Shown here piece by piece: positions 753 through 17,782 of a stretch of 64,000 nt of DNA (the stretch's first letter is position 1; every line of letters starts with the position of its first letter). The translations under genes and the position numbers were made by a program. The notes below the pieces were generated by a model. The model was not told where the DNA came from and ran no database searches. It saw nothing but the letters and a program-made list of their open reading frames with translations. Source of the DNA: Rubrivivax sp. (GTDB lineage Bacteria; Pseudomonadota; Gammaproteobacteria; Burkholderiales; Burkholderiaceae_C); contig JAEUPB010000096.1 in assembly GCA_016789955.1 (NCBI GenBank), forward strand, positions 62,001-126,000. Direction: 5' to 3'.

Positions 753-1592
753 CTACCCGGCTTCGGCGTCGACGGGCCAGGCGGCCAGCGTCGCCACGCC
801 GAGCGCCGCGCCGAGGTTGTGCAGCAGCACCGAGGCCACCGGGGCATCGAGCATCGCGGCGACCCCGCCGGCCAGCGGCTGCAGCACCGCCAGCGCGAGC
901 AGCGCGGCAGCCGTGCGCCGATGCCGGGCCAGCAGCGCGTGCCGCGCGAGCAGCACGGTGCACGTGAGCACCGCCAGCGCGAGCAGCAGGTGCCCTTGCG
1001 GCGCGATGCGCAGGGCGCCGGCGCCCGAGAGCGCGCCCAGCGCGGCCTGCGCGAGCCACAGCACGAGTGCCGGCGCGAGCAGCATCGGCGGTGGGCGGGC
1101 ACCGCCGCAGGTCGCGTGCACCGGCCTGCGGGCGCAGGCCCACAGCCTCGCGGCCGCAGCCACCATCGCCAACCCGCCGACGAGGTTGCCGAGCATCACC
1201 ATCGAGGCCGTCGCCGCCGATCCCGCGCGCGAGCCGCCGGTGGCCACGCCGAGCGCCGACAACGCGAGCGCGAGCGCGAGCAGCCCCGCTGCGGCCCCGC
1301 GTACGCCGCGGGGTGCCGACTTGCCGCGCAGCGCCAGCAGCAGCGCGATCGTTCCGAGCAGCACCGCACTGGCGGCCACGCGGTGCAGCGTGCGCACGGC
1401 GCGTTCGGTGTCCGACGGAGCCTGCGCGAACGTCATCGTTGCCGGCTCCGCCTGCAGGCGGCAGGCCGGCCAGTCGATGCACGGTTCCCTCGGCGCCGAC
1501 AGGCGCAGCCACGCGCTCGCGCTCGTCACCACGAGCATCAGCACGAGCAGGGCATGGGTGCAGGAGCGCAGCAGCGCAGGCATGGGCCGCAT
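753..1592 (-). CDS. ctaA: CtaA/COX15-like heme A synthase family membrane protein
   Basis: This is a hydrophobic 279-aa protein with about eight membrane segments. The TLHR motif around residue 70 and C-terminal histidines near 201 (GHLLLAL) and 258 (HNLGAALG) match three of the four heme-ligand positions of CtaA, which oxidises heme O to heme A. The fourth position, in the helix around residue 136, reads GNLVGG, so Asn stands where His is expected (my alignment by eye). It is also short for the family. The start at 1592 was chosen because it opens directly onto a signal/TM segment; 1583 is an in-frame alternative. It lies divergent from the oxidase-like operon that carries ctaB and sco, so it probably makes or binds heme for that enzyme. 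It could also be a degenerate paralogue without activity. Confidence 0.75.
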   Translation of the reverse strand: MRPMPALLRSCTHALLVLMLVVTSASAWLRLSAPREPCIDWPACRLQAEPATMTFAQAPSDTERAVRTLHRVAASAVLLGTIALLLALRGKSAPRGVRGAAAGLLALALALSALGVATGGSRAGSAATASMVMLGNLVGGLAMVAAAARLWACARRPVHATCGGARPPPMLLAPALVLWLAQAALGALSGAGALRIAPQGHLLLALAVLTCTVLLARHALLARHRRTAAALLALAVLQPLAGGVAAMLDAPVASVLLHNLGAALGVATLAAWPVDAEAG

Positions 1593-1619: not shown

Positions 1620-1633
1620 TTGACCTGGTTCAT
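1620..1633 (+). promoter_or_regulatory. DNR/FNR-type box and promoter of the oxidase-like operon
   Basis: TTGACCTGGTTCAT matches TTGA-N6-TCAA at seven of eight key positions. An AAGAAT hexamer at 1656-1661 starts 22 nt after the box, which is the class II FNR geometry (box centred near -41.5). The first gene of the plus-strand operon starts at 1691. In the other orientation the expected -10 would fall inside the ctaA start, so the box most likely drives the plus-strand operon only. Confidence 0.7.
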
Positions 1634-1690: not shown

Positions 1691-1849
1691 ATGGGCACAC
1701 ACGACGACGACGCGACGGCCCCGGTGCCGTGGATGCAGCAGGTGCTGGACAACCCGTTCCTGCTGCTGTTCCTCGGCGTGCTCGTGCCGATGCTGCTCTA
1801 CACGGTGTGGGGTGTCGTCGACATCCTCACCCTGCCCGTCTCGAAGTAG
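1691..1849 (+). CDS. Small single-pass membrane protein, putative oxidase accessory subunit
   Basis: This 52-aa protein has an acidic N-terminus (MGTHDDD), then a hydrophobic helix at about residues 22-43, and ends in VSK. It is the first gene behind the DNR-type promoter and stops 11 bases before the CuA subunit. A single-helix peptide at this place recalls the small subunit IIa of ba3-type oxidases, but I see no sequence signature that proves this. ATG at 1691 was taken because it is the only start in frame that fits the operon and the promoter. It is real by position, and its function is inferred. Confidence 0.7.
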   Translation: MGTHDDDATAPVPWMQQVLDNPFLLLFLGVLVPMLLYTVWGVVDILTLPVSK

Positions 1850-1860
1850 CGGAGGCCCGC

Positions 1861-2400
1861 ATGAGCGCCATCCTTCCGCCCGCCGAGAGGCTGTGGTACC
1901 GGCACCCGATCGATCGTGTCGAGGGCACCTGGATCGCCCTCGCGCTGGCGTGGTGCCTGATCATGTTCGCGATGATGGTCGGGTGGCACATCTGGGGCTC
2001 CCAGAACCTGTCCACCGAGACCTACCGCACTGCGCCCGACCGCTTCCAGGGCAAGGTGCAGGCGATGGTCGACAAGTACACGGTGCGCACCGAGACCGAC
2101 GAAAAGACGCCGGTGGTCGCACCGCCTGCGGGCAGCGACGTCTACCTGCTCGCGCGGCTGTGGGCCTTCTACCCGATCCTCGAGCTGGAGAAGGGCAAGA
2201 CCTACCGGCTGCACCTCTCGGCCATGGACTACAACCACGGCTTCTCGCTGCAGCCGGCCAACATCAACATCCAGATGGTGCCGGGCTTCGAGCACGTGGT
2301 GACGATCACGCCGAACCAGAGTGGCACCTACTCGGTGGTGTGCAACGAATACTGCGGCATCGGGCACCACAAGATGGTCGGCCGCATCCACATCAAGTGA
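1861..2400 (+). CDS. Heme-copper reductase/oxidase subunit II with CuA site
   Basis: This 179-aa protein has one N-terminal membrane helix (about residues 24-46) and a periplasmic cupredoxin domain. A complete binuclear CuA site is visible: His126, Cys161, Glu163 (through its backbone), Cys165, His169 and Met172, in the order CNEYCGIGHHKM. The short single-helix layout resembles B-family (ba3-like) subunit II rather than the two-helix A-family form. CuA accepts electrons from a periplasmic cytochrome c or cupredoxin and passes them to subunit I, which starts 7 bases downstream. The start ATG follows a GGAGG ribosome binding site. CuA-bearing subunit II also occurs in sNOR-type NO reductases, which fits the nirS neighbourhood. 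Confidence 0.9.
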   Translation: MSAILPPAERLWYRHPIDRVEGTWIALALAWCLIMFAMMVGWHIWGSQNLSTETYRTAPDRFQGKVQAMVDKYTVRTETDEKTPVVAPPAGSDVYLLARLWAFYPILELEKGKTYRLHLSAMDYNHGFSLQPANINIQMVPGFEHVVTITPNQSGTYSVVCNEYCGIGHHKMVGRIHIK

Positions 2401-2407
2401 GGCGGGC

Positions 2408-4102
2408 ATGACCACCACCTACCGTACCTGCCCCCGTTCGGGGCTGCAGTTCGAGGCCCAGGCCGAAGCGCTGATGAAGGTCAACGCCTTCGTCGCCGTC
2501 GTCTGGCTGCTGATCGGCGGCCTGCTCGCCATCGGCGTCGTGCTGACGCGCTGGCCGGCGTTCCGCTGGCTCGAGGCCGAGACCTTCTACATGGTGCTCA
2601 CGGCCCACGGCATCGACATGCTGATCTTCTGGATCATCTTCTTCGAGATCGCGGTGCTGTACTTCGCCAGCTCGACGCTGCTGCGCTGTCGGCTCGCGAC
2701 GCCGAAGATCGCCTGGCTCGCGTTCGCGCTGATGCTGATCGGCTCGGTGACGAACAACATCGCGGTGTTCCGCGGCGCCTCCAGCGTGATGATGACCAGC
2801 TACGTGCCGATGATGGCCGAGCCGAGCTTCTACCTCGGGCTGATCCTGTTCGCCGTCGGCGCGCTGATCGCGTGCTTCGTGTTCTTCGGCACGCTGGTGG
2901 TGGCCAAGCGCGAGAAGACCTACGAGGGCTCGGTGCCGCTGGTGACCTTCGGCGCCATCACCGCGGCGATCATCGCGGTGTTCACGATCGCCTCGGGCGC
3001 GATCATCCTGATCCCGACGTGGCTGATGTCGATCGGCGTGGTCAAGGAGGTGAACCCGCTCGTGTACCGCACGATCTGGTGGGCCTTCGGCCACAGCTCG
3101 CAGCAGATCAACGTGGCGGCGCACATCTCGGTGTGGTACCTGGTGGCCGCGGTGGCCTTCGGCGCCAAGCCGATGAGCGAGCGCGTGAGCCGCGTCGCGT
3201 TCTTCCTCTACATCCTGTTCCTGCAGATCGCCAGCGCGCACCACCTGCTGGCCGACCCGGGCCTGTCCACCGGCTGGAAGGTCGTCAACACCAGCTACTT
3301 CATGTACTTCGCGGTGCTGGCGTCGATGCTGCACGGCCTGACGATCCCCGGCGCGATGGAAGTGGCGCAGCGGCAGAAGGGCTACACGCGCGGCCTGTTC
3401 GAGTGGCTGCGCAAGGCCCCGTGGGGCAACCCGACGTTCGCCGGCGTGTTCATCGCGCTGATCGGCTTCGGTTTCCTGGGCGGCATCTCGGGCGTGATGA
3501 TGGGCACCGAGCAGCTGAACATGATCATCCACAACACGATCTACGTGCCGGGGCACTTCCACGCCACGGTGGTGATCGGGACCACGCTCACGTTCATGGC
3601 GCTCACCTACTACCTGGTGCCGGTGCTGTTCAGGCGCGAGCTGGTGGCGCCCAAGCTGGCGCTGGCGCAGGTGTACCTGTTCGGCTTCGCGATGTACGCG
3701 CTGTGCCTGGTGATGATGGGCGCCGGCACGCTGGGCGTGAGCCGGCGGCACTGGGACATGGCCTTCGGCGGCGCCGCGCTGGCGCACGAGTGGCCGGGCG
3801 CGGCCTACCTGATGATGGCCGGCGTTGGCCTGCTGGGGCTGGTGGCGATCATCGGCGGCGCGATCTTCTGCGGCGTGGTGGTGGCTTCGCTGCTGTTCGG
3901 GCGCAAGCTTGAGTCGGGCGCCACCAGCGCGACCTTCACGCCGGTGCCGCGCGCCGCACCCACGGTGGTGGCGCAGAGCTACGGCTCGATGGGCTTCGCC
4001 GCGCCGGGCACCTTCACGCTGGCGATGGTGTTCCTGGTGGCCTTCGTGCTGTACTACTTCATCAACTGGAAGTACCTCTCGACCCTCTGGGGGCTGAGCT
4101 GA
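2408..4102 (+). CDS. Heme-copper subunit I, Tyr-less B-family type; candidate sNOR-like NO reductase
   Basis: This 564-aa protein has about 13 membrane helices. Ligands seen: His67 (AHGIDM) and His385 for the low-spin heme, His383 for the high-spin heme (PGHFH), and His229, His278 and His279 for CuB. In oxygen-reducing enzymes the helix VI motif is GHPxxY; here it reads GHSSQQ, so the crosslinked Tyr position is Gln233. Loss of that Tyr is typical of NO-reducing members of the superfamily. Neighbours are the CuA subunit, ctaB and sco, the same companions as in the Nitrosomonas norSY-senC locus (from memory). Regulation by a DNR-type box and proximity to nirS support NO reduction. A true oxidase with an unusual active site cannot be excluded. 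Confidence 0.85.
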   Translation: MTTTYRTCPRSGLQFEAQAEALMKVNAFVAVVWLLIGGLLAIGVVLTRWPAFRWLEAETFYMVLTAHGIDMLIFWIIFFEIAVLYFASSTLLRCRLATPKIAWLAFALMLIGSVTNNIAVFRGASSVMMTSYVPMMAEPSFYLGLILFAVGALIACFVFFGTLVVAKREKTYEGSVPLVTFGAITAAIIAVFTIASGAIILIPTWLMSIGVVKEVNPLVYRTIWWAFGHSSQQINVAAHISVWYLVAAVAFGAKPMSERVSRVAFFLYILFLQIASAHHLLADPGLSTGWKVVNTSYFMYFAVLASMLHGLTIPGAMEVAQRQKGYTRGLFEWLRKAPWGNPTFAGVFIALIGFGFLGGISGVMMGTEQLNMIIHNTIYVPGHFHATVVIGTTLTFMALTYYLVPVLFRRELVAPKLALAQVYLFGFAMYALCLVMMGAGTLGVSRRHWDMAFGGAALAHEWPGAAYLMMAGVGLLGLVAIIGGAIFCGVVVASLLFGRKLESGATSATFTPVPRAAPTVVAQSYGSMGFAAPGTFTLAMVFLVAFVLYYFINWKYLSTLWGLS

Positions 4103-4121: not shown

Positions 4122-5027
4122 ATGGAACCGCAAGGCCTGGCCCCGATCGCCGCCGCCACTGCCGCGCCGGCCCGCTGGCGCACCGTGCTCAGCGTCTTCA
4201 AGCTGCGCATCGGCGTGCTGATCATGGTCACCGCGCTGGCGGGCCTGGCCGCGGTGCCGGCCTCGCAGGCCAGCTTCTGGCAGGTGCTGGTGCTGTCGCT
4301 GTCGGTGCTGGGGGCGTCGGCCGCCGCGGGTGCGCTGAACCAGTACCTCGAGGCCGACAGCGACCGCCTGATGGCGCGCACGCGCCGTCGCGCCTTCGCC
4401 AGCGGCGCGCTGCCGCGCAGCCCGGCGTGGCTCGCGGCCATCGCGCTGCTGCTGGCGGTGTCGCTGGGGGCGGCGGCGTGGGTGGTGAACGGCCTGGCGG
4501 CGACCTTCGTCGGGCTGGGCGCCATCACCTACGGCGTGGTCTACACGATGTGGCTCAAGCGCCGCACCGCGTGGAACATCGTGATCGGCGGGCTGGCCGG
4601 CAGCTTCGCCGTGCTGGCAGGCGCCGCGGCGGCGAGCCCGCAGATCGGCGCGCCCGCGCTGCTGCTGGCGCTGGTGCTGTTCCTGTGGACGCCGCCGCAC
4701 TTCTGGAGCCTGGCGATCGCCTGCGAGGAGCAGTACGCGGCGGCCGGCGTGCCGATGCTGCCGGTAGTGGTGGGGCGCAGCCGCGCCGCGGCCATCGTGC
4801 ACGCGCACGCGCTGGCGCTGGTGGTGGCGTCGCTGCTGCCGTTGCTGTACGGCGCGGGCTGGGTGTACGGCGCGGCCGCGCTCGCCGGCGGCGTGCACCT
4901 GCTGCACCGCACCTGGGCGCTGGCCCGCGTGCCCGAACGGCGCACCGCGATGGCGGCGTTCTTCGCGTCGATGGTGCAGCTCGCCGTGCTGCTGGCCGGG
5001 GTGGTGCTTGATGCTGCGTTGCGCTGA
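4122..5027 (+). CDS. ctaB: Protoheme IX farnesyltransferase (heme O synthase)
   Basis: This 301-aa UbiA-family prenyltransferase has about nine membrane helices. It adds a farnesyl group to protoheme, giving heme O, the precursor of heme A. The first Asp-rich motif is present in the form NQYLEADSDRLMARTRRR, and the WTPPHFWSLAI segment is diagnostic of CtaB/CyoE. It starts 19 bases after subunit I and its 3' end overlaps sco by 17 bases, so it belongs to the same operon. Its presence implies that the linked heme-copper enzyme carries an O- or A-type heme, although the companion ctaA-like protein looks degenerate. Confidence 0.93.
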   Translation: MEPQGLAPIAAATAAPARWRTVLSVFKLRIGVLIMVTALAGLAAVPASQASFWQVLVLSLSVLGASAAAGALNQYLEADSDRLMARTRRRAFASGALPRSPAWLAAIALLLAVSLGAAAWVVNGLAATFVGLGAITYGVVYTMWLKRRTAWNIVIGGLAGSFAVLAGAAAASPQIGAPALLLALVLFLWTPPHFWSLAIACEEQYAAAGVPMLPVVVGRSRAAAIVHAHALALVVASLLPLLYGAGWVYGAAALAGGVHLLHRTWALARVPERRTAMAAFFASMVQLAVLLAGVVLDAALR

Positions 5028-5961
5028 CGTCTGGAGGCGGGCACTCGGCGGGTTCGCCGTGCTGGTCGCCGCATGCGGCGCACCGTCGGGTGCGGCCGCG
5101 GCCGACCCGTCGGTCGTGCAGCGCGCCGATGAGACCGGCGTGCCGCGCCTGGACGAGCGCGAGGCGCTGCGTGCCGGCGAGGCGGTGGTCGGCACGCAGC
5201 CGCCCGACTTCGCGTTCACCAGCCGCCACGGCCAGCCGGTGCGGCTGTCGGATTACCGCGGCAAGCCGCTGCTGGTGAGCTTCATCTACACCGGCTGCTT
5301 CCAGGTCTGCCCGACGCAGACCCGTGCGCTGAACGAGGCCGTGCAGGGCCTGGACAAGCTGCTCGGCCCCGACCGCTACCACGTCGTCAGCATCGGCTTC
5401 AACCAGCCGTTCGACAGCCCCGAGCAGATGCGCGCCTACGCCGCGCAGCACCGCATCCAGGCCCGCAACTGGGAATTCCTGAGCCCGCCCGCGGCCGCCG
5501 TGGCGCCGCTGACGCGCGCGTTCGGCTTCAGCTACCTCGCCACGCCGGCGGGCTTCGACCACGTGCTGGGCGTGACCGTGCTCGATGCCGAAGGCCGCGT
5601 GCGCGCGCAGGTGTGGGGCGACGCCCTGCGCGCCGACCAGCTCGGCGGGCCGCTGCGCCAGCTGCTGCTGGGCGCGCCGGTGGTCGGCACCGATGCCGGC
5701 ACGACGATCGCCGCGCTGGTCGACCGCGTGCGCGTGCTGTGCACGGTGTACGACCCGAACACCGGCACCTACCGCTACGACGTCAAGCTGGTCGCCGAGC
5801 TGATCGGCGGCTCGCTGTTCTTCCTCACCGCGTTCGCCTACCTGTGCGTCGAATGGCGCCGGCAGCGGCGCTCGCGCCTGGCCGTGCCACCCGCTGTATG
5901 CCTTCCGCTGCACCCCGCGCCGACGCCGGAGCCCGCCCCGGTTTCCGGTCGCACGGCCTGA
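5011..5961 (+). CDS. senC: SCO1/SenC-family copper chaperone with C-terminal membrane helix
   Basis: This 316-aa protein has an N-terminal signal or anchor (residues 10-32, with a possible lipobox at Cys22) and a thioredoxin-like SCO domain. The copper-binding CxxxC motif is CFQVC at Cys96-Cys100, and the third ligand His lies in the FDHVLGV segment. A further hydrophobic helix follows near residues 260-285, so the protein is held in the membrane at both ends or at its C-terminus. SCO proteins deliver copper to CuA of subunit II. ATG at 5011 was preferred to the adjacent TTG. It overlaps ctaB upstream and the cytochrome b fusion gene downstream, which indicates translational coupling. Confidence 0.92.
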   Translation: MLRCADVWRRALGGFAVLVAACGAPSGAAAADPSVVQRADETGVPRLDEREALRAGEAVVGTQPPDFAFTSRHGQPVRLSDYRGKPLLVSFIYTGCFQVCPTQTRALNEAVQGLDKLLGPDRYHVVSIGFNQPFDSPEQMRAYAAQHRIQARNWEFLSPPAAAVAPLTRAFGFSYLATPAGFDHVLGVTVLDAEGRVRAQVWGDALRADQLGGPLRQLLLGAPVVGTDAGTTIAALVDRVRVLCTVYDPNTGTYRYDVKLVAELIGGSLFFLTAFAYLCVEWRRQRRSRLAVPPAVCLPLHPAPTPEPAPVSGRTA

Positions 5962-7451
5962 CCCTCTGTCGCGCCGCCGAGCGTGGCCTCGACGCCGCGG
6001 TGGGCGCGCAGGCCAATCCGCTGCGCCACCTCGGCACGGTGGCGTGCGGGGCGTTCTGGCTGCTCGCGGCCACCGGCGTGGTGCTCTACGCCGTGCTCGA
6101 CACCTCGGTGCAGGGTGCGTGGACATCGATCGAGGCGCTGCACGACGCGCCGCTGCACGCCGGGCAGCTGCTGCGCGGGCTGCACCGCTACGCCGCCGAC
6201 CTGCTCGTGCTGGCGACGCTGGCGCACCTGCTGCGCGAGTGGCTGCACGCGCACGAGCGCGGCGCCCGCCGCTACACGTGGCTCACCGGCGTGCCGCTGA
6301 TCGCCTTCGCCGCGGCCAGCGGCGTGGGCGGCTTCTGGCTCAACTGGGACCAGCTCGGCCAGTACTCCGCGATGGCCACCGCGGCGTGGGTCGACGCGCT
6401 GCCGCTGCTGTCGTCGCCGCTGTCGCGCAACTTCCTCGACGCCGCTGCGGTGGGCGACCGGCTGTTCTCGCTGTTCGTGTTCGTGCACCTGGGCGTGCCG
6501 CTGCTGATGCTGTTCGGCCTGTGGTTCCACGTCCAGCGGCTGTCGCGGGCCGCGGTGCTGCCGCCGCGGCCGTTGGCCGTCGCGCTGGCCGCGGCGCTCG
6601 CTGCCGCCGCACTGCTGTGGCCGGTGGTGTCGCATCCGCCCGCGCTGGCCGGCGCCGAGCCCGCGGTGCTGCGGCTGGACTGGGTGCTGCTGCTCGTGCA
6701 CCCGCTCACCGAGGCCACCTCGCCGGCCGCCGTGTGGGCGCTGGTGCTCGGCGGCGCGGTGCTGCTGTTCGTGCTGCCGTTCCTGCCGCAGCCGCCGCGG
6801 CCGCCGGTGGCGGAGGTGGCGCCGCAGGCCTGCAACGGCTGCACGCGCTGCGTGGACGATTGCCCGTACGCCGCGATCACGATGGTGCCGCACCCGAACC
6901 AGCGCATCGGCCGGCAGCTCGCGGTGGTGGATGCCGATCTGTGCGTGGGCTGCGGCATCTGTGCCGGCGCCTGCCCGTCGGGCACGCCGTTCCGCAGCGC
7001 CGGGGCGCTGGTCAACGGCATCGACCTGCCGGGGCTCACGGTCGACGCGCTGCGCTCGCTGCTGCGCGGCCGGCTGGCCGCGGCGCGCGATCTGCAACCG
7101 GTCGTCGTGTTCGGCTGTGCGCACGGGGCCCGGTTGCCGGTGGGGCGCGACGTCGTCGCGATGGCACTGCCGTGCGCGGCGCAGTTGCCGCCGAGCTTCG
7201 TCGAGTACGCGCTGCGCGACGGGGCCGGCGCAGTGGTGGTGGCCGCGTGCCGCGAGTCGGGCTGCGAGTTCCGCCTCGGCGAGCGCATCACCGCCGAGCG
7301 GCTGCACGCCCGGCGCGAGCCGCACCTGCGCCTGCAGCACCTGCCTGCGGGCCGCGTGGTGCTGGCACACGCCGGTGCCGGCGACGAGGCCGTGGTGGCC
7401 GCCGCGGTGCAGCGGCTGCGGGCGGGCGTGCGCACGGAGGCTGCCTCGTGA
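5898..7451 (+). CDS. Diheme cytochrome b fused to 2x[4Fe-4S] ferredoxin and MvhD/FlpD-like domain
   Basis: This is a 517-aa three-part protein. Residues 40-290 form a cytochrome b N-terminal-type bundle with two His pairs spaced 14 apart (His96/His110 and His197/His211), enough for two b hemes. Residues 310-362 hold two [4Fe-4S] motifs (Cys312, 315, 318, 322 and Cys349, 352, 355, 359). Residues 400-510 resemble the MvhD/FlpD adaptor of heterodisulfide reductases, with Cys407, Cys426 and a CRESGC motif at 451-456. The quinol-site GYxLPW motif of its paralogue at 9554 is changed to GFWLNW here. ATG at 5898 overlaps sco by 64 bases; no better start is seen. The role is inferred to be electron transfer between a soluble donor and the membrane enzyme. 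I know no named family with this architecture. Confidence 0.85.
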   Translation: MPSAAPRADAGARPGFRSHGLTLCRAAERGLDAAVGAQANPLRHLGTVACGAFWLLAATGVVLYAVLDTSVQGAWTSIEALHDAPLHAGQLLRGLHRYAADLLVLATLAHLLREWLHAHERGARRYTWLTGVPLIAFAAASGVGGFWLNWDQLGQYSAMATAAWVDALPLLSSPLSRNFLDAAAVGDRLFSLFVFVHLGVPLLMLFGLWFHVQRLSRAAVLPPRPLAVALAAALAAAALLWPVVSHPPALAGAEPAVLRLDWVLLLVHPLTEATSPAAVWALVLGGAVLLFVLPFLPQPPRPPVAEVAPQACNGCTRCVDDCPYAAITMVPHPNQRIGRQLAVVDADLCVGCGICAGACPSGTPFRSAGALVNGIDLPGLTVDALRSLLRGRLAAARDLQPVVVFGCAHGARLPVGRDVVAMALPCAAQLPPSFVEYALRDGAGAVVVAACRESGCEFRLGERITAERLHARREPHLRLQHLPAGRVVLAHAGAGDEAVVAAAVQRLRAGVRTEAAS

Positions 7452-7984
7452 ACGCACCCGCGACCGACACCGCCCCGGTGGCCCGCGGCCCGCGCGCGTG
7501 GCTCGGCCAGGTGCTGCTGTACGGCCTGTTCGCCGCGGCCATCGGCACCTTCTCGCAGTGGCCGCCGTACCACCACCTCGGCCCCGACGATGCGCTGGTG
7601 AAGGTCAGCTTCTCGCGCGTGGGCCGGCCGGTGGGGGACTGCCGCACGCTGTCGGCCGAGGAGCTGGCGGCGCGGCCGCCGAACATGCGCACGCCCACGG
7701 TGTGCCCGCGCGAGCGTTCGGCCGTGGTCGTGGAGGTCGACATCGACGGCGCCCCGCGGCTGCGGCGCACCGCGCAGCCCGGCGGCGTGGCGCGCGACGG
7801 CGCCTCGGCGGTGTACGAGCGCCTCGTCGTGCCCGCCGGCGCCCGGCGCATCGCCGTGCGGCTGTCGGACGACCAGCGCGCGCGCGAGCGGCCCTGGACG
7901 CGCGAGGGCACCGTGACGCTGGCTGCCGGCCAGGTGCTGGTGGTCGACTTCGATGCCGAGCAGGGCGGCATCACCTTCCGATGA
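7448..7984 (+). CDS. Membrane-anchored protein of unknown function in the oxidase-like operon
   Basis: This 178-aa protein starts with GTG in a GTGA overlap with the cytochrome b fusion gene, so it is translationally coupled. It has one membrane helix (about residues 19-38, LGQVLLYGLFAAAIGTFSQW) followed by a largely hydrophilic, probably periplasmic, domain that looks beta-rich and has two Cys (about residues 64 and 82) that could form a disulfide or bind a cofactor. I do not recognise the family. Its fixed place between the two cytochrome b/heme-copper pairs suggests a structural or assembly subunit of the same complex. Confidence 0.75.
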   Translation: MNAPATDTAPVARGPRAWLGQVLLYGLFAAAIGTFSQWPPYHHLGPDDALVKVSFSRVGRPVGDCRTLSAEELAARPPNMRTPTVCPRERSAVVVEVDIDGAPRLRRTAQPGGVARDGASAVYERLVVPAGARRIAVRLSDDQRARERPWTREGTVTLAAGQVLVVDFDAEQGGITFR

Positions 7985-8007
7985 GTTGCTGCGGAGAGCC
8001 GCGATGA
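7981..8007 (+). CDS. Eight-codon ORF bridging two genes (possible translational coupler)
   Basis: ATG at 7981 overlaps the stop of the previous gene (ATGA) and its own TGA at 8005-8007 overlaps the ATG of the next gene (ATGA). It would encode MSCCGEPR, and a GGAGAG ribosome binding site for the downstream gene lies inside it. It fits a ribosome hand-over device; a functional peptide is not shown. Confidence 0.35.
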   Translation: MSCCGEPR

Positions 8008-9521
8008 ACCTCCACACGAGCTGGACCCACCCCCACCCGCTGCAGCCCCGTGCCGCAGCGCCCGTCACCGCGTCGAGCCCGGCCGAGTACCTGCTGCCCG
8101 AGGTGCACGCCGAGGTCCGGCCACTGGCCCGCGCGTGGCTGGTCATCGCGATGGCCGCGCTGGTCGGCTCGGGTCTGTATTCGGTGCTGCTGGTGCTGGC
8201 GCGCACGCCGGCGATCAACGCGTGGCTGCCGGCGGGCGACTTCTTCCGCGTGGCGCTGGTCGTGCACGTCGACCTGTCGGTGCTGGTGTGGTTCACGGCC
8301 ATCGCCGCGATGCTGTGGGCGCTCGTGCAGCGGCCGCCCGTGCACCGCGGGCACCGGCTGCTGGCGGGCGCGCCGGTGGTGCTGTGCGGGGCCGGCGCGG
8401 CGACGATGGCGCTGGCCGCGTTCGTCGACCCGGGCACGGCGGTGATGGCCAACTACATCCCGATGCTCGACAGCGGCACGTTCCGCGTGGCGCTGGCGAT
8501 GTTCGGCCTGGGCGCGCTGCTGCTGGTGCTGGGCGGCCTGGTGCGTGCCCGGCCCGTGGGCGCGGCGGTGGACGGCGCCGGCGCGCTGCGCTTCGGGCTG
8601 AACGCGAGCGTGGTGGCGGCCGCGGTGGCGCTGCTGGCGTTCGGCTGGTCGCTCGCGGTGGTGCCGACGGCGCTGCCGTCCAAGGCCTACTTCGAGATCG
8701 CCTGGTGGGGCGGCGGGCATGCGCTGCAGTTCACGTGGACGCTGCTGATGCTGGTGGGCTGGCTGGCGCTGGCGCAGGCCTGCGGCGCCCGCGTGCCGCT
8801 GTCGCCGCGCGTCGTGCTGCTGCTGTTCGCGGTGGCGCTGGCGAGCGTGTTCGCCACGCCGCTGGCCTACCTGATGCACGACGTGGCCACCGTGGAGCAC
8901 CGCAACCTGCACACCTGGGCGATGCGCTTCGGCGGCGGCGTGGCGATCGCGCCGCTGGCGCTGGCGGTGCTGCTGGCGCTGCTGCAGGCGCGCGGCACGG
9001 CGCTCACGTCCGAGCAGCGCCCGCTGCGCGCCGCGCTGACCCCGGAGCAGCGGCCGCTGCGCGCGGCGCTGACCCCGGAGCAGCGCCCGCTGCGCGCGGC
9101 GCTGATCGCCTCGATGCTGCTGTTCGTCTCCGGCGGTCTGATCGGCCTGACGATCGGCGGCAGCAACGTGAAGATCCCCGCGCACTACCACGGCTGCATC
9201 GTCGGCGTGACGCTGGCGCTGATGGGGCTCGTGCACCTGCTGCTGCCGCGCCTGGGCGGGCGCGCGCCGCAGGGGCGGCTGGCGGTGCTGCAGCCGTGGC
9301 TGTACGGCGGCGGCCAGCTGCTGCACATCATCGGCCTCGTCTGGTCGGGTGGCTACGGTGTGCAGCGCAAGGTGGCCGGCAGCGAGCAGGTGCTGCGCAG
9401 CGGGGCCGAGGTGGCCGGCATGGGGCTGATGGGCGTGGGCGGGCTGCTGGCGATCGTCGGCGGCCTGATGTTCGTGGTGGTGGTGCTGCGCGCGATCCGG
9501 CCGCAGGGCCCGCGGCACTGA
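8004..9521 (+). CDS. Heme-copper subunit I homologue apparently lacking the CuB His pair
   Basis: This 505-aa protein has about 12 membrane helices. Histidines for the hemes are kept: His88 (VVHVDLSVLVW) and the HYH motif at 394-396 (IPAHYHG). One CuB-type His is kept at 239 in GGGHALQF, where Phe replaces the catalytic Tyr. Counting from His239 to where the His-His pair should be (+49/+50) gives Ala-Tyr in PLAYLMHD; only a single His292 is close. So it may bind hemes but not a normal CuB or FeB. A three-unit 33-bp tandem repeat expands the loop at residues 333-366. It lies between the two cytochrome b fusion genes. It could be a divergent NO reductase-like subunit or a purely heme-bearing electron-transfer subunit. 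Confidence 0.8.
   Translation: MNLHTSWTHPHPLQPRAAAPVTASSPAEYLLPEVHAEVRPLARAWLVIAMAALVGSGLYSVLLVLARTPAINAWLPAGDFFRVALVVHVDLSVLVWFTAIAAMLWALVQRPPVHRGHRLLAGAPVVLCGAGAATMALAAFVDPGTAVMANYIPMLDSGTFRVALAMFGLGALLLVLGGLVRARPVGAAVDGAGALRFGLNASVVAAAVALLAFGWSLAVVPTALPSKAYFEIAWWGGGHALQFTWTLLMLVGWLALAQACGARVPLSPRVVLLLFAVALASVFATPLAYLMHDVATVEHRNLHTWAMRFGGGVAIAPLALAVLLALLQARGTALTSEQRPLRAALTPEQRPLRAALTPEQRPLRAALIASMLLFVSGGLIGLTIGGSNVKIPAHYHGCIVGVTLALMGLVHLLLPRLGGRAPQGRLAVLQPWLYGGGQLLHIIGLVWSGGYGVQRKVAGSEQVLRSGAEVAGMGLMGVGGLLAIVGGLMFVVVVLRAIRPQGPRH
9002..9100 (+). repeat. 33-bp tandem repeat, three copies, in frame
   Basis: Units at 9002-9034, 9035-9067 and 9068-9100 encode the 11-residue unit L-T-x-E-Q-R-P-L-R-A-A three times. 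Units 2 and 3 differ by one base; unit 1 has more changes. It forms a charged extramembrane loop between two helices of the heme-copper homologue. The copy number probably varies between strains. Confidence 0.95.
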
Positions 9522-9553
9522 ACCGGTTGCTGCACAGGCACCGCGAGCACCCG

Positions 9554-11476
9554 ATGGCCACTGCCCCGCAACGCGTGCTGCAGGCGCTGTTCATGCGCGC
9601 CGAGCGTGTGTTCAACCGAGCCTTCGGCGACCGCGCCAACCCGCTGTACCACCTGGGCGCGACGGCCTTCTTCCTGTTCTGGGTGGTGGCGGCCACCGGG
9701 CTCGTGCTGTACGCGTTCTTCGACACCAGCGTTGGCGGCGCCTACCGCTCGGTGGCGCGTGTGTCGGCGTTCGCCGGCGGCGCCGGCGGTGCGCTGCGCA
9801 CCGTGCACCGGCACGCCAGCGATGCGATGGTGGCGGTGATGCTCGCGCACCTGCTGCGCGCCTGGGCCTTCGACCGGCTGCGCGGCTTCCGCTGGTTCTC
9901 GTGGATCACCGGCGTGGCGCTGCTGTGGTTCGCCTACGTGGCCGGCATCAACGGCTACATGCTGCCGTGGGACCAGCTCGCGCAGTTCGTGACGCAGGCC
10001 ACCTTCGAGTGGCTGGACTGGCTGCCCGGCTTCGGCGGCACGCTGAGCCGCAACTTCATCCTGCCCGAGCACGTGAACGACCGGCTGTTCTCGCTGCTGG
10101 TGTTCATCCACATCGGCGTGCCGCTGGCGATGCTGCTGCTGATGTGGGTGCACGTGCAGCGTGTGCCGAAGGCCGCGACGCTGCCGCCGCGCCCGATCGC
10201 GCAGGCGCTGCTCGTCATGCTGGTGCTGCTGGCCGCGGCCGCACCGGTGGCCGGCCACCTGCCGGCCGACCTGCACCGCGCACCGCAGGTGCTGGCCTTC
10301 GACTGGTTCCTGCTGCCGGTGCTGGCCGGGCTGTACGCGGCGTCGCCTGCCGCGGTGTGGGCCACGGTGGCCGGCGGCACGCTCGGGCTCGCCCTGCTGC
10401 CGTGGCTGCCGTGGCGCCGCACGGGCGCGGCCACCGCGCGGATTACGCTGCACCCCGGCCCGGTGCAGGCGACGGCGCGCCCGGGCGAGACGCTGCTGGA
10501 AGCCGGCCTGCGCGCCGGCCTCGTGCTGCCGTTCGACTGCCGCGCCGGCGGCTGCGGGCGCTGCGTCTGCACGGTGCTGGGCGGGCGCGTGGAGCAGGGC
10601 CCGGCGCAGGCAGCGGTGCTGACGCCGGCGATGCGCTCGCGCGGCCAGGCGCTGATGTGCTGCGCGGTGCCGCAAGGCGAGGTCGAGATCGAGGTACCTG
10701 GCGTGGCGTCGCTGGCCGCGGCCGATGCGGTGCGCGTGCGGCGCTGGCAAGGCGTGGTGCAGCGGCTGGAGCGGCTGTCGCCCGAGTTGATGCGCGTGTT
10801 CATCGCGCTGCCACCGGGCGAGCGCATCGCCTACGCGCCCGGCCAGTACATCGACATCCTGCTCGACGACGGCGAACGCCGCTCGTTCTCGTTCGCCGCC
10901 GCGCCGCCCGATGCCGGTGCCGAGCGCATCGAGCTGCACGTGCGGCGCATCCCCGGCGGCCGCTACACCACCCATGTCTTCGAGGCGATGCGCGAGGGCG
11001 ACCGGATCTCGTTCGAAGGCCCGCTCGGCCGCTTCGGGCTGCTGGCCGAGAGCCAGCGGCCGATCCTCCTGCTCGCCGGGGCCACCGGCTACGCGCCGAT
11101 CCGCAGCATCCTCGAAGACGCCTTCGGCCGCGGTGTGCGCCGCCCGATCGAGCTGTACTGGGGCGTGCGCGCGCGCGCCGACCTGTACCTGCTCGAGCAG
11201 CTCGAGGCCTGGCAGCGCGCGCAGCCGGCGTTCCGCTTCGTGCCGGTGCTCTCGCATGCCGCCGACGACAGCGGCTGGACCGGCCGGCGCGGCAACGTGC
11301 ACGAGGCGCTGCTGCAGGACCACCCCGACCTCACCGGCTGGGAGGTCTACGCCTGCGGCTCGGTGGCGATGGTGCGCACCGCGGTGCCCGACTTCCTGGC
11401 GCACGGGCTCTCGGAGCAGTTGTGCTTCTCCGACGCGTTCGTGCCGAACGCGGCCGCCGGGGCTGCCCCGGCATGA
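9554..11476 (+). CDS. Diheme cytochrome b fused to [2Fe-2S] ferredoxin and FAD/NAD(P)H reductase
   Basis: This is a 640-aa fusion. Residues 30-285 are a cytochrome b N-terminal half with His85/His99 and His186/His200 and the classical quinone-site motif GYMLPW (residues 134-139). Residues 296-380 form a plant-type [2Fe-2S] ferredoxin (Cys329, 334, 337 and 369/370). Residues 390-630 form a ferredoxin-NADP reductase-like module with RSFSF (flavin), GATGYAPIRSI (pyridine nucleotide) and a CGS motif near 601. The expected path is NAD(P)H to FAD to [2Fe-2S] to b hemes, then quinone or a partner. It lacks the C-terminal cytochrome b half, and no Rieske gene is present. The paralogue at 5898 shares the cytochrome part only. 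The regulator gene overlaps its stop by 4 bases. Confidence 0.88.
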   Translation: MATAPQRVLQALFMRAERVFNRAFGDRANPLYHLGATAFFLFWVVAATGLVLYAFFDTSVGGAYRSVARVSAFAGGAGGALRTVHRHASDAMVAVMLAHLLRAWAFDRLRGFRWFSWITGVALLWFAYVAGINGYMLPWDQLAQFVTQATFEWLDWLPGFGGTLSRNFILPEHVNDRLFSLLVFIHIGVPLAMLLLMWVHVQRVPKAATLPPRPIAQALLVMLVLLAAAAPVAGHLPADLHRAPQVLAFDWFLLPVLAGLYAASPAAVWATVAGGTLGLALLPWLPWRRTGAATARITLHPGPVQATARPGETLLEAGLRAGLVLPFDCRAGGCGRCVCTVLGGRVEQGPAQAAVLTPAMRSRGQALMCCAVPQGEVEIEVPGVASLAAADAVRVRRWQGVVQRLERLSPELMRVFIALPPGERIAYAPGQYIDILLDDGERRSFSFAAAPPDAGAERIELHVRRIPGGRYTTHVFEAMREGDRISFEGPLGRFGLLAESQRPILLLAGATGYAPIRSILEDAFGRGVRRPIELYWGVRARADLYLLEQLEAWQRAQPAFRFVPVLSHAADDSGWTGRRGNVHEALLQDHPDLTGWEVYACGSVAMVRTAVPDFLAHGLSEQLCFSDAFVPNAAAGAAPA

Positions 11477-12267
11477 CCGGCGGGCTTGACCGGGATCAAG
11501 ACCCTGCGGGGGGCGAGGCGCGAGCATCCGCGCCGGCTGGCACCTCGGAGGTGCACGCCGACGCCGTGCTCGACACCCGCACCTACGACATCCCCCGCTT
11601 CCTGGCCCGGTTGCCGCTGTTCAGCGACATCGGGCCCGAGGCGCTGGAGCGCCTGGCGCTAGGCTGCACGCTGCACCGGCACGAGCGCGGCGGGCTCGTG
11701 TTCCGACAGGGCGACCCGTGCGAGAGCTTCAAGGTCGTGATGATGGGCCAGGTGAAGCTGTTCGTGATCTCTCCGTCGGGACACGAGAAGGTGATCGAGC
11801 TGATCGGCCCCGGGCACAGCTTCGCCGAGGCGCTGATGTTCCTCGGCAAGCCGTGCATGGTGAGTGCGCAGACGCTGGCCGACTCGATGCTGCTCAGCGT
11901 GAGCCGCGCGGTGGTGATGAGCGAGCTGGCGCAGGATCCGCAATTCTCGATGCGCATGCTGGCCGGCCTGTCGCGCCGCCTGCACGGCCTCGTCAGCGAC
12001 GTGCAGGCCTATGCGCTGCAGAACGGCGTGCAGCGCGTCATCGGCTACCTGCTGCGCGACCAGCTCACCGACGAAGGCACGCCGGCCGAGGCCGTGACGG
12101 TCTCGCTGCCGGTGAGCAAGGCCACGCTGGCCTCGCGGCTGAGCCTGACGCCGGAATACTTCTCGCGCGTGCTTCGCGAGCTGGAAGACGCGCAGCTGAT
12201 CCAGGTCGACCGGCGCGACATTCGCATCCTCGACGTGAAGCGGCTCGCGGCGTATCAGAGCGGCTGA
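11473..12267 (+). CDS. Crp/Fnr-family regulator, DNR/NnrR-like
   Basis: This 264-aa protein (if ATG 11473 is used) has an N-terminal cyclic-nucleotide-like sensor domain (about 40-160, LPLFSDIGPEAL onward), a dimerisation helix and a C-terminal winged helix (TKATLASRLSLTPEYFSRVLREL-like recognition region near 215-240). The N-terminal Cys cluster of FNR is absent, so it is more like DNR/NnrR, which sense NO through heme. ATG 11473 overlaps the previous stop (ATGA), but a DNR-type box and promoter lie within codons 5-9, so GTG at 11566, just before LDTRTYDIPRF, is a plausible second start. It probably controls the four boxes described here. Its 3' end overlaps the convergent d1-propeller gene by 13 bases. 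Confidence 0.9.
   Translation: MTGGLDRDQDPAGGEARASAPAGTSEVHADAVLDTRTYDIPRFLARLPLFSDIGPEALERLALGCTLHRHERGGLVFRQGDPCESFKVVMMGQVKLFVISPSGHEKVIELIGPGHSFAEALMFLGKPCMVSAQTLADSMLLSVSRAVVMSELAQDPQFSMRMLAGLSRRLHGLVSDVQAYALQNGVQRVIGYLLRDQLTDEGTPAEAVTVSLPVSKATLASRLSLTPEYFSRVLRELEDAQLIQVDRRDIRILDVKRLAAYQSG
11486..11499 (+). promoter_or_regulatory. DNR/FNR-type box inside the 5' end of the regulator gene
   Basis: TTGACCGGGATCAA is a full TTGA-N6-TCAA dyad. GAGCATCC begins 22 nt downstream at 11522, with the same spacing and the same octamer as in the nirS promoter. This marks an internal promoter for the Crp/Fnr gene, and suggests autoregulation and a shorter protein started downstream. Confidence 0.65.
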
Positions 12268-13451
12268 GGCGGTATCGCGAGCCCGCGGCCGCGAAAGCCT
12301 GCGGGCAAGGACCAGGTGTCGGTCGTGCGGCCCTCGCCGTCGAGTGACGTGACCGCGGGCGGATCGCTGCCCATCACCAGCAGGCGACGCCGCGCCGTGT
12401 CGGCCACGCAGCTCGTCGGGTGGCGCGCGGCGCCGTCGAGCCAGGTCCAGGCGCCGCCGATGCGCGTTGCCAACCGCACGCGGCCACCGACCTCGAACAG
12501 GCCCCAGAGGCGCACGGCGTCACCGCCGATCCCCGCGGGCAGCGCCTGCAGCGCGAGCACCGCACCCGGCGCGTCGTGCCGCGCCGCGATCACCCAGCGC
12601 CGCGGATCGATCTCGACGATCGCGTTGCCGTGCGGCAGCCACCAGCGCGGGCCGCGGCCATCGTCGTGCCCGCACGCGCCCTGCGGCCGCGCGCCGGGCA
12701 GCTTCCAGCGCGCGATCTCGCGGCGCACGTCCAGGTGCACCACCGCCACGTCGTCGCCGGCACGGCCGGCCACCCAGGGCTGCGTGGCACCGATGTGGTC
12801 GGGCGTCGGCATCGCATCTCCGAGCGGTGCACGGCGCACGGCCAGGTAGCCCGGCGTGGGCAGGCCTTCGCCCATGCGGTGGTCGTGCACCAGGCCTTCG
12901 TAGAGCGGCGGCGCGGCGGGATCCAGCGAGACTTCCCACCATTCGCCCAGGCTCGGCCAGGTGGCGAGCAGGCTGCGCCGCGAGGGCAGGGCTCGCAGCG
13001 CGGCGGCGCGGGCACGCCGGCGGCGTTCGACGTCGGTGCCGGCGTAGACCTTCAGCGGGGGCGCATCGGGCGGCGCCGTGGCATCGAGCAGCACCAGCGC
13101 ATCGGCCTGCGCCAGCGCCACCACGCGGCCGTCGGCGCTGGCGGCCAGCGCGTGCGGCGTGGGCGCGAGCAGGCGGGTGTCGCTCTGGCCCGGGCTGGCG
13201 ACGAACGGCCAGCGCTGCAGTCGGCCCGACGCGGTGAGCGTCCACACCGCATCGGCGGTGAGCGCGGGGGCATCGGCGAGCGGGCCGTCGAGCGTGTGCA
13301 GCCGGGCGGCCTCGCCGAGGCGCAGCACGGCCAACGCATCCATGCCCCAGGCCACGCCAGCGGTCGGGCCGGAAACGCCGCCGCCCCGGGCAGCGAGGTG
13401 CACCGGGGCGGCGAGCGCCGCGCAGCCTGCCAGGGCCTCGCGGCGGTTCAT
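12255..13451 (-). CDS. d1-type beta-propeller protein (NirF/NirN-related, divergent)
   Basis: This 398-aa protein has an Arg-Arg signal (MNRREALAGC), read as Tat-like or possibly lipoprotein-like, followed by repeated short beta blades. The segment EWWEVSLDPAAPPLYEGLVH, continuing DHRMGEG, recalls a motif I know from cytochrome d1 domain proteins. The C-terminal half matches poorly. It has no CxxCH, unlike NirN. It is the third gene of the nirS transcript (17 bases after the c551 gene). NirF-type proteins act in the last steps of heme d1 synthesis in the periplasm, and a role of that kind is inferred. The other d1 genes (nirE, nirJ, nirDLGH) are not in the window. Confidence 0.6.
   Translation of the reverse strand: MNRREALAGCAALAAPVHLAARGGGVSGPTAGVAWGMDALAVLRLGEAARLHTLDGPLADAPALTADAVWTLTASGRLQRWPFVASPGQSDTRLLAPTPHALAASADGRVVALAQADALVLLDATAPPDAPPLKVYAGTDVERRRRARAAALRALPSRRSLLATWPSLGEWWEVSLDPAAPPLYEGLVHDHRMGEGLPTPGYLAVRRAPLGDAMPTPDHIGATQPWVAGRAGDDVAVVHLDVRREIARWKLPGARPQGACGHDDGRGPRWWLPHGNAIVEIDPRRWVIAARHDAPGAVLALQALPAGIGGDAVRLWGLFEVGGRVRLATRIGGAWTWLDGAARHPTSCVADTARRRLLVMGSDPPAVTSLDGEGRTTDTWSLPAGFRGRGLAIPPQPL

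Positions 13452-13821: not shown

Positions 13822-17782
<3,961 letters not shown>

Follow-up and report, generated by a model that had tools for sequence, protein, structure and literature searches.

A conserved cytochrome b/iron-sulfur protein, a probable partner of the putative nitric oxide reductase eNOR, in an operon of Rubrivivax sp.

Investigating a stretch of 64,000 nucleotides from the genome of a Rubrivivax sp. (the window; positions 62001-126000 of contig C24 in assembly G000, which comprises 5.26 Mb in 116 contigs and is 79.6% complete, a limit that applies to every statement on the content of this genome), we found ten genes between window positions 1691 and 12267, all on one strand, which overlap or are separated by short gaps: SUIIa, SUII, SUI, ctaB, sco, CbFeS, hyp178, HCO2, CbFNR and a gene for a CRP/FNR-family regulator. 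By sequence criteria, the NO-reducing part of this operon is a member of a known, little-studied family of nitric oxide (NO) reductases, eNOR, for which the conversion of NO to nitrous oxide (N2O) is predicted. The unit conserved among related genomes consists of eNOR, CbFeS and hyp178, with HCO2 and CbFNR as extras. The features of the locus are the following:

1691..1849, plus strand: SUIIa, one-helix protein of 52 amino acids, taken as a small eNOR subunit (>80% coverage in 66/80 related loci)
1861..2400, plus strand: SUII, CuA subunit II (Pfam COX2; conserved H118, C161, E163, C165, H169 and M172)
2408..4102, plus strand: SUI (P0001), catalytic eNOR subunit I (COX1, 207.6 bits)
4122..5027, plus strand: ctaB, heme o synthase (TIGR01473, above cut-off)
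5008..5961, plus strand: sco, copper chaperone (Pfam SCO1-SenC; C97, C101 and H185 invariant in 52 rows)
5898..7451, plus strand: CbFeS (P0002), cytochrome b N-terminal half, 2x[4Fe-4S] and FlpD/MvhD domain (Pfam)
7448..7984, plus strand: hyp178 (P0003), one helix at the N-terminus and a beta domain in which two Cys are invariant (no match in Pfam or NCBIfam)
8004..9521, plus strand: HCO2 (P0004), subunit-I-like heme-copper protein lacking the His-His pair of CuB
9554..11476, plus strand: CbFNR (P0005), cytochrome b N-terminal half, [2Fe-2S], FAD and NAD(P)H domains (Pfam)
11473..12267, plus strand: CRP/FNR-family regulator (Pfam cNMP_binding and HTH_Crp_2)
13825..15585, minus strand: nirS, cytochrome cd1 nitrite reductase, a neighbour of the operon (Pfam Cytochrom_D1, 500.8 bits, and a cytochrome c domain)
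1620..1633, plus strand: FNR/DNR-like box TTGACCTGGTTCAT, 3 mismatches
753..1592, minus strand: CtaA/COX15-like protein (P0007), divergent from the operon (Pfam COX15-CtaA, E 1.5e-6, 27.9 bits, just below the cut-off of 29.9)

A first-pass annotation of the window had described two fusions with only the N-terminal half of cytochrome b, in overlapping genes on the same strand that follow subunit-I-type genes, and both the halves (by Pfam in P0002 and P0005) and the arrangement are as it described them. It had overlooked the CuA subunit II, the 52-residue subunit, the Gln characteristic of eNOR, the conserved gene for a protein of 178 residues (hyp178) located between the halves and the lack of the CuB pair in HCO2.

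Catalytic subunits and HCO2

SUI is complete as a heme-copper subunit I, and its nearest solved structures are mostly ba3-type oxidases. The His residues serving heme and CuB (H67, H229, H278, H279, H383 and H385) are invariant in all 35 rows of the alignment, and so is Gln233 (H229+4), which in helix VI takes the position of the cross-linked Tyr of the oxidases; the same Gln was found in 19/19 sample genomes in which SUI was inspected. The CuA ligands are kept in SUII, whose gene adjoins that of SUI. The eNOR family is defined by Gln in place of the active-site Tyr (PMC8756737) and, in the part of that article drawn on here, shares with our enzyme the CuB and heme His, the adjoining CuA subunit II and the kinship with ba3 oxidases. 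Putative members have already been reported from Alpha-, Beta-, Gamma- and Deltaproteobacteria (PMC8756737, section 3.3). In contrast, neither CbFeS-hyp178 nor HCO2-CbFNR is described as a partner in that part of the article. As the CuA ligands are retained, a cytochrome c would be an adequate donor to eNOR, and the earlier proposal, with the fusions as the way in for the electrons, is not upheld as it stood.

Four proteins of the genome match PF00115, the family to which NorB belongs: an aa3-type CtaD, the cbb3 subunit CcoN, SUI and HCO2. No NorB was therefore found in this assembly, nor did NosZ give a match above cut-off. The presence of nirS at a distance of 1.6 kb from the operon, together with this set of PF00115 proteins, is only consistent with NO being reduced to N2O by eNOR. 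In the mechanism that we propose, SUIIa-SUII-SUI, matured by CtaB and Sco, would act as a CuA-containing NO reductase removing NO from the neighbouring NirS. The family is also said to be treated by Murali et al. in 2024. The eNOR Gln is also encoded by plasmid-borne heme-copper genes of Thermomicrobium (L145) and Thermus (L146), whose annotation is subunit I of a cbb3-type oxidase, and on the Thermus plasmid genes of the Rrf2 family and with DUF542 adjoin the Gln-type gene.

HCO2 likewise has the heme-copper subunit I fold, but the positions aligned with H278-H279 of SUI (the CuB pair of helix VII) are not His, and hence one NO-reducing site is expected in the operon. Its conserved His residues are 88, 239, 394, 396 and 441, with 299 conserved only in part; such a CuB-less heme-copper protein would probably serve as a heme electron relay. 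One of its inter-helix loops contains a 33-base unit (11 amino acids, LTPEQRPLRAA) repeated 3.3 times at window positions 8998-9105, which is present as a single copy in the consensus of the 37-row HCO2 alignment.

Genes that accompany eNOR

Related loci were collected by scanning contigs with an HCO2 peptide pattern, which gave 199 stretches, 191 of them encoding an HCO2 relative, and the best 80 of these 191 were kept; because HCO2 was the query, this set is biased towards loci which bear it. The order of the nine genes from SUIIa to CbFNR, all on one strand, recurs in 50/80 loci; of the remaining ones several are truncated at the end of a contig, ctaB is missing from 5 and a few show a different order. 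Carriers of the complete operon include Comamonas granuli (L053) and Simplicispira lacusdiani (L086). With 191 of 199 stretches encoding an HCO2 relative and 50 of 80 loci keeping the order, the arrangement is beyond chance. The FeS-FlpD half is present in 77 of these loci, the FNR half in 73 and hyp178 in 79; hyp178 directly follows CbFeS in 121/129 fetched stretches, some of which cover one gene twice.

Two genome samples, which have G000 in common, were used to follow eNOR itself. In the class sample (274 genomes; eNOR called at a profile match of 1e-100 or better, CbFeS below 1e-80, the next-best matches beginning at 4e-25), 23 genomes contain both eNOR and CbFeS, 1 eNOR only, 1 CbFeS only and 249 neither. 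The phylum sample (299 genomes; CbFeS at 1e-60 or better) gave 28 with both, 1 with eNOR only, 5 with CbFeS only and 265 with neither. Where one-sided genomes were inspected (G324, G275 and G393), the contig ends at SUI or sco. The pairing does not follow from a common operon, as in nine genomes of the phylum sample (G360, G370, G389, G397, G401, G408, G419, G437 and G500) CbFeS-hyp178 does not lie beside the eNOR genes and the 7.5-8.6 kb upstream of CbFeS are without SUI or sco. In G389 and G408 the two groups of genes share a contig on opposite strands; in the other seven they are on different contigs, so that a long-range linkage is possible there. A hand-picked comparison of 40 of the 52 known eNOR genomes with 40 of the 250 other genomes of the class sample found nirS in 35/40 and 7/40, respectively, and those seven non-eNOR genomes are without CbFeS: CbFeS tracks eNOR rather than nirS.

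HCO2 and CbFNR are less constant companions. HCO2 occurs in 19/24 eNOR genomes of the class sample, not always inside the eNOR cluster, is absent from 5 and is found in 11 genomes without an eNOR match. In G171, G227, G274 and G288, which have eNOR and no HCO2 profile match, the cluster reads SUII-SUI-(ctaB)-sco-CbFeS-hyp178, and neither in these four nor on a Defluviimonas plasmid is there an HCO2 or FNR match after the core cluster. On that plasmid (L144, NZ_CP156080.1), the eNOR core, CbFeS and hyp178 are followed by a gene of the hemerythrin family. Relatives of HCO2 (38-43% identical, tblastn) were further seen in five stretches (L125 and L127, L128, L129, L130) of genomes without an eNOR match, where their neighbours are rpoH or genes for an aa3 cytochrome oxidase accompanied by ctaB or sco.

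These distributions bear on the proposal of the first-pass annotation, in which the four membrane proteins form one complex passing electrons from NAD(P)H or ferredoxin to an NO site with conservation of energy. Such a complex would be in line with the nine-gene order in 50 of the 80 loci (chosen, as said, by HCO2) and with an exchange of the NADPH-type head described below. However, the eNOR genomes lacking HCO2, the genomes having HCO2 without eNOR, the HCO2 relatives next to aa3 oxidase genes or rpoH, the retention of CuA and a CbFNR gene distant from the eNOR cluster in one genome (G142, see below) all speak against it, and we consider this version very improbable. What stands of the earlier account is the conservation of a gene set and its link to NO, through the eNOR signature and the nirS neighbour; the unit, however, is eNOR with CbFeS and hyp178 instead of the four parts.

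A DNR-type promoter had also been proposed. In the window alone it is weak, the box having 3 mismatches, yet it holds across relatives: a TTGAT-N4-ATCAA-like box with <=2 mismatches is located upstream of SUIIa in 49/67 upstream regions (window included), compared with a background of about 11% of random locus windows and about 6% of mononucleotide shuffles. The box and the CRP/FNR gene at the end of the operon would fit a control by NO or low oxygen. As to the flanks, an open reading frame of 398 amino acids between the regulator and nirS (12255-13451, minus strand) has no Pfam match at 0.001, and low-scoring tblastn matches to the CtaA-like protein occur in 31/80 related loci.

The cytochrome b fusions and their heads

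CbFeS comprises by Pfam the N-terminal half only of Cytochrome_B (44-214), 4Fe-4S motifs and an FlpD domain (411-511), and CbFNR consists of Cytochrome_B (29-202), Fer2, FAD_binding_6 and NAD_binding_1. Both carry two His pairs spaced 14 residues apart, as first noted from the window, H96/H110 and H197/H211 in CbFeS and H85/H99 and H186/H200 in CbFNR, and these are invariant in alignments of 77 and 73 rows, respectively (window included). The four heme His, the eight 4Fe-4S Cys and the four FlpD Cys of CbFeS are conserved at 100%, as are the [2Fe-2S] Cys of CbFNR (C329, C334, C337 and C369). The first-pass annotation is upheld in that both are membrane-spanning cytochrome b proteins, one with an Fe-S head and the other with an NAD(P)H flavin head. 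By hydropathy, each fusion has six clear membrane segments, or seven if a possible one is counted; charge bias and the type of the heads make it likely that the latter are on the cytosolic side. The small protein hyp178 is modelled by AlphaFold with a pLDDT of 91.4. Two copies of CbFeS close together on one contig were noticed in four genomes of the phylum sample (G456, G520 (L178), G545 and G595).

With cytochrome b6 and the cytochrome b of bc1 complexes the fusions share the N-terminal half and its two His pairs, and the PDB chains matched by the CbFeS profile are cytochrome b6, the best solved match of this part, and MvhD. They differ in having redox heads attached and in lacking the C-terminal half (or subunit IV), for which no Pfam match was obtained within CbFeS or CbFNR; nor did Pfam recognise a Rieske protein in the ten proteins scanned from the operon and its flanks. 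The FlpD domain, above the Pfam cut-off and with four invariant Cys, resembles MvhD/FlpD of the hydrogenase-heterodisulfide reductase system, but in CbFeS it is fused to cytochrome b and 4Fe-4S parts, and an HdrA-type FAD part is absent from the protein, as its NCBIfam match to HdrA2 is confined to positions 571-766 of 777. Besides CbFeS, no other FlpD domain was found in the genome (no search for HdrA was made). Bifurcation of the MvhD type, as originally suggested, is therefore not favoured. The protein RME88945.1 is tabulated in PMC8756737 as combining cytochrome b6, DMSOR-beta-like and FlpD domains, the table giving domains that occur together with homologues of one query domain; it may fit an exchange with a c heme, provided that this query domain is the cytochrome c one.

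The reductase part of CbFNR is nearest to BenC, below the curated cut-off, and shares with BenC-type proteins the [2Fe-2S], FAD and NAD domains, from which it differs by its fusion to a cytochrome b half. G142 consists of a single contig, along which CbFNR and the eNOR cluster are separated by about 1.9 Mb, or by 0.9 Mb in the opposite direction should the molecule be circular. The place of CbFNR is taken in G216 by another fusion (stretch L148, 3672-6212, minus strand), in which a cytochrome b half is joined to a CysJ-type diflavin reductase with flavodoxin, FAD and NAD domains; the head resembles CysJ below the curated cut-off (NCBIfam, 547.6 bits at a cut-off of 668), CysJ itself being without the cytochrome b half. 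The gene sits in the same cluster, after those for HCO2, CtaG and Sco and with NnrS beyond. Over 954 columns, the DNA for its cytochrome b half shares 97.6% identity with that of the CbFeS copy about 6 kb away; provided that the assembly is correct, a duplication or gene conversion must have taken place recently. This case suggests that the membrane half docks one partner while the NAD(P)H heads are exchangeable.

The domain order of CbFNR and the NADPH-type head in G216 would also fit a flow in the opposite direction, in which quinol and the proton motive force drive electrons via the b hemes to NAD(P)+ or ferredoxin, providing reductant under anoxia. A similar proposal was reportedly made by Garcia Martin and colleagues in 2006 for a cytochrome b/b6 of Accumulibacter that carries NAD(P) and flavin domains as a fusion. 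Nevertheless, BenC-type proteins, the nearest to the reductase part, oxidise NADH, and such a flow would leave the tracking of eNOR by CbFeS unexplained, so that we regard it as unlikely.

Roles considered for CbFeS and hyp178

Our preferred reading, held tentatively and with confidence somewhat short of even, is that CbFeS-hyp178 is a transmembrane electron-transfer module serving the proteobacterial eNOR. Within this phylum, CbFeS and hyp178 would form a redox module dedicated to eNOR, in which a membrane part resembling cytochrome b6, with its two hemes, acts as a wire and the 2x[4Fe-4S] and FlpD domains as its head. Electrons would pass between a partner in the cytosol and one in the membrane or on its periplasmic side, be it quinone, a cytochrome c or eNOR itself. 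CbFNR would be a second, lineage-specific wire, with an NAD(P)H-FAD-[2Fe-2S] port on the same kind of cytochrome b half. In view of the CuA site of eNOR, this wire may supply additional electrons, serve in activation or lead electrons away.

Membrane Fe-S proteins which serve a single respiratory metalloenzyme include CcoG/FixG, acting in the activation of cbb3 oxidase, and NosR, acting in that of NosZ, the former being characterised by a FixG C-terminal domain and the latter by an FMN_bind domain. CbFeS resembles both in its possible dedication to one enzyme and differs in having b hemes and FlpD and neither of these two domains, which are absent from the 18 Pfam families listed for it. By analogy, the main rival explanation regards CbFeS (with hyp178) as a factor of biogenesis or reductive activation, which would pass electrons from the cytosol across the membrane for the reduction of Cu(II), of disulfides in Sco or of the binuclear site. 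That CbFeS directly follows sco in most linked loci, that CbFeS and eNOR occur together in an almost obligate manner, also when the genes are not adjacent, and that CuA offers eNOR an alternative electron supply all argue in its favour. On the other hand, where CbFeS-hyp178 is separated, sco (and ctaB where found) stays with eNOR (G370, G389 and G408), and the separated pair lies with nirS in 7/9 stretches; the missing FixG C-terminal and FMN_bind domains and the Gln-type homologues on the Thermus and Thermomicrobium plasmids, where no CbFeS was found (the plasmids only being searched), point in the same direction. We judge an activation factor possible but less likely than electron transfer.

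Several observations also weigh against an electron-transfer module. Having retained CuA, eNOR does not need an input from CbFeS, and so close a co-occurrence would be expected of an assembly or activation factor as much as of an electron donor. The plasmids just mentioned carry Gln-type homologues without CbFeS, a locus of a Thermomonas metagenome-assembled genome (L092) has eNOR, hyp178, HCO2 and CbFNR and no CbFeS within its 21 kb, and the five phylum-sample genomes with CbFeS and no eNOR match are 69-96% complete. As the operon provides neither a C-terminal cytochrome b half nor a Rieske partner, quinone reactivity is only putative, and six or seven hydrophobic segments per fusion mean that their count alone does not fix the side of the heads. 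Finally, the diflavin swap is seen in one genome, possibly misassembled, whose sister G327 is without the fusion or an eNOR match.

Taking the electron-transfer module further, the proteobacterial eNOR could be seen as a two-part system with a near-obligate cytochrome b wire, plug-in heads (a 4Fe-4S/FlpD core with [2Fe-2S]-FAD-NAD(P)H or CysJ-type additions) and a CuB-less relay, a generalisation that we put forward as speculative. The first-pass annotation knew of no described complex with this set; the catalytic enzyme is in fact known, and the novelty is the tight partnership of eNOR, CbFeS and hyp178 with its exchangeable heads, which was not found described in the open literature. Among the titles and starts of abstracts listed by the searches of open PMC, none describes the operon, a prior account in Murali et al. 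2024 (PNAS) or Garcia Martin et al. 2006 being possible.

With CbFeS present in 51/53 eNOR genome counts (23/24 and 28/29, G000 being in both), it offers a second marker gene for an enzyme expected to convert nitric oxide to the greenhouse gas nitrous oxide. The question arises why an NO reductase of the CuA type should retain a wire that leads to heads with Fe-S and NAD(P)H domains. If the above holds true, the plug-in wire would represent a new class of respiratory electron-input complex, leading from cytosolic low-potential carriers to NO reduction and perhaps conserving energy, and should energy be conserved or NAD(P)H be channelled to NO removal, models of denitrification and N2O formation would change for the organisms carrying it, Burkholderiales, Lysobacterales and others.

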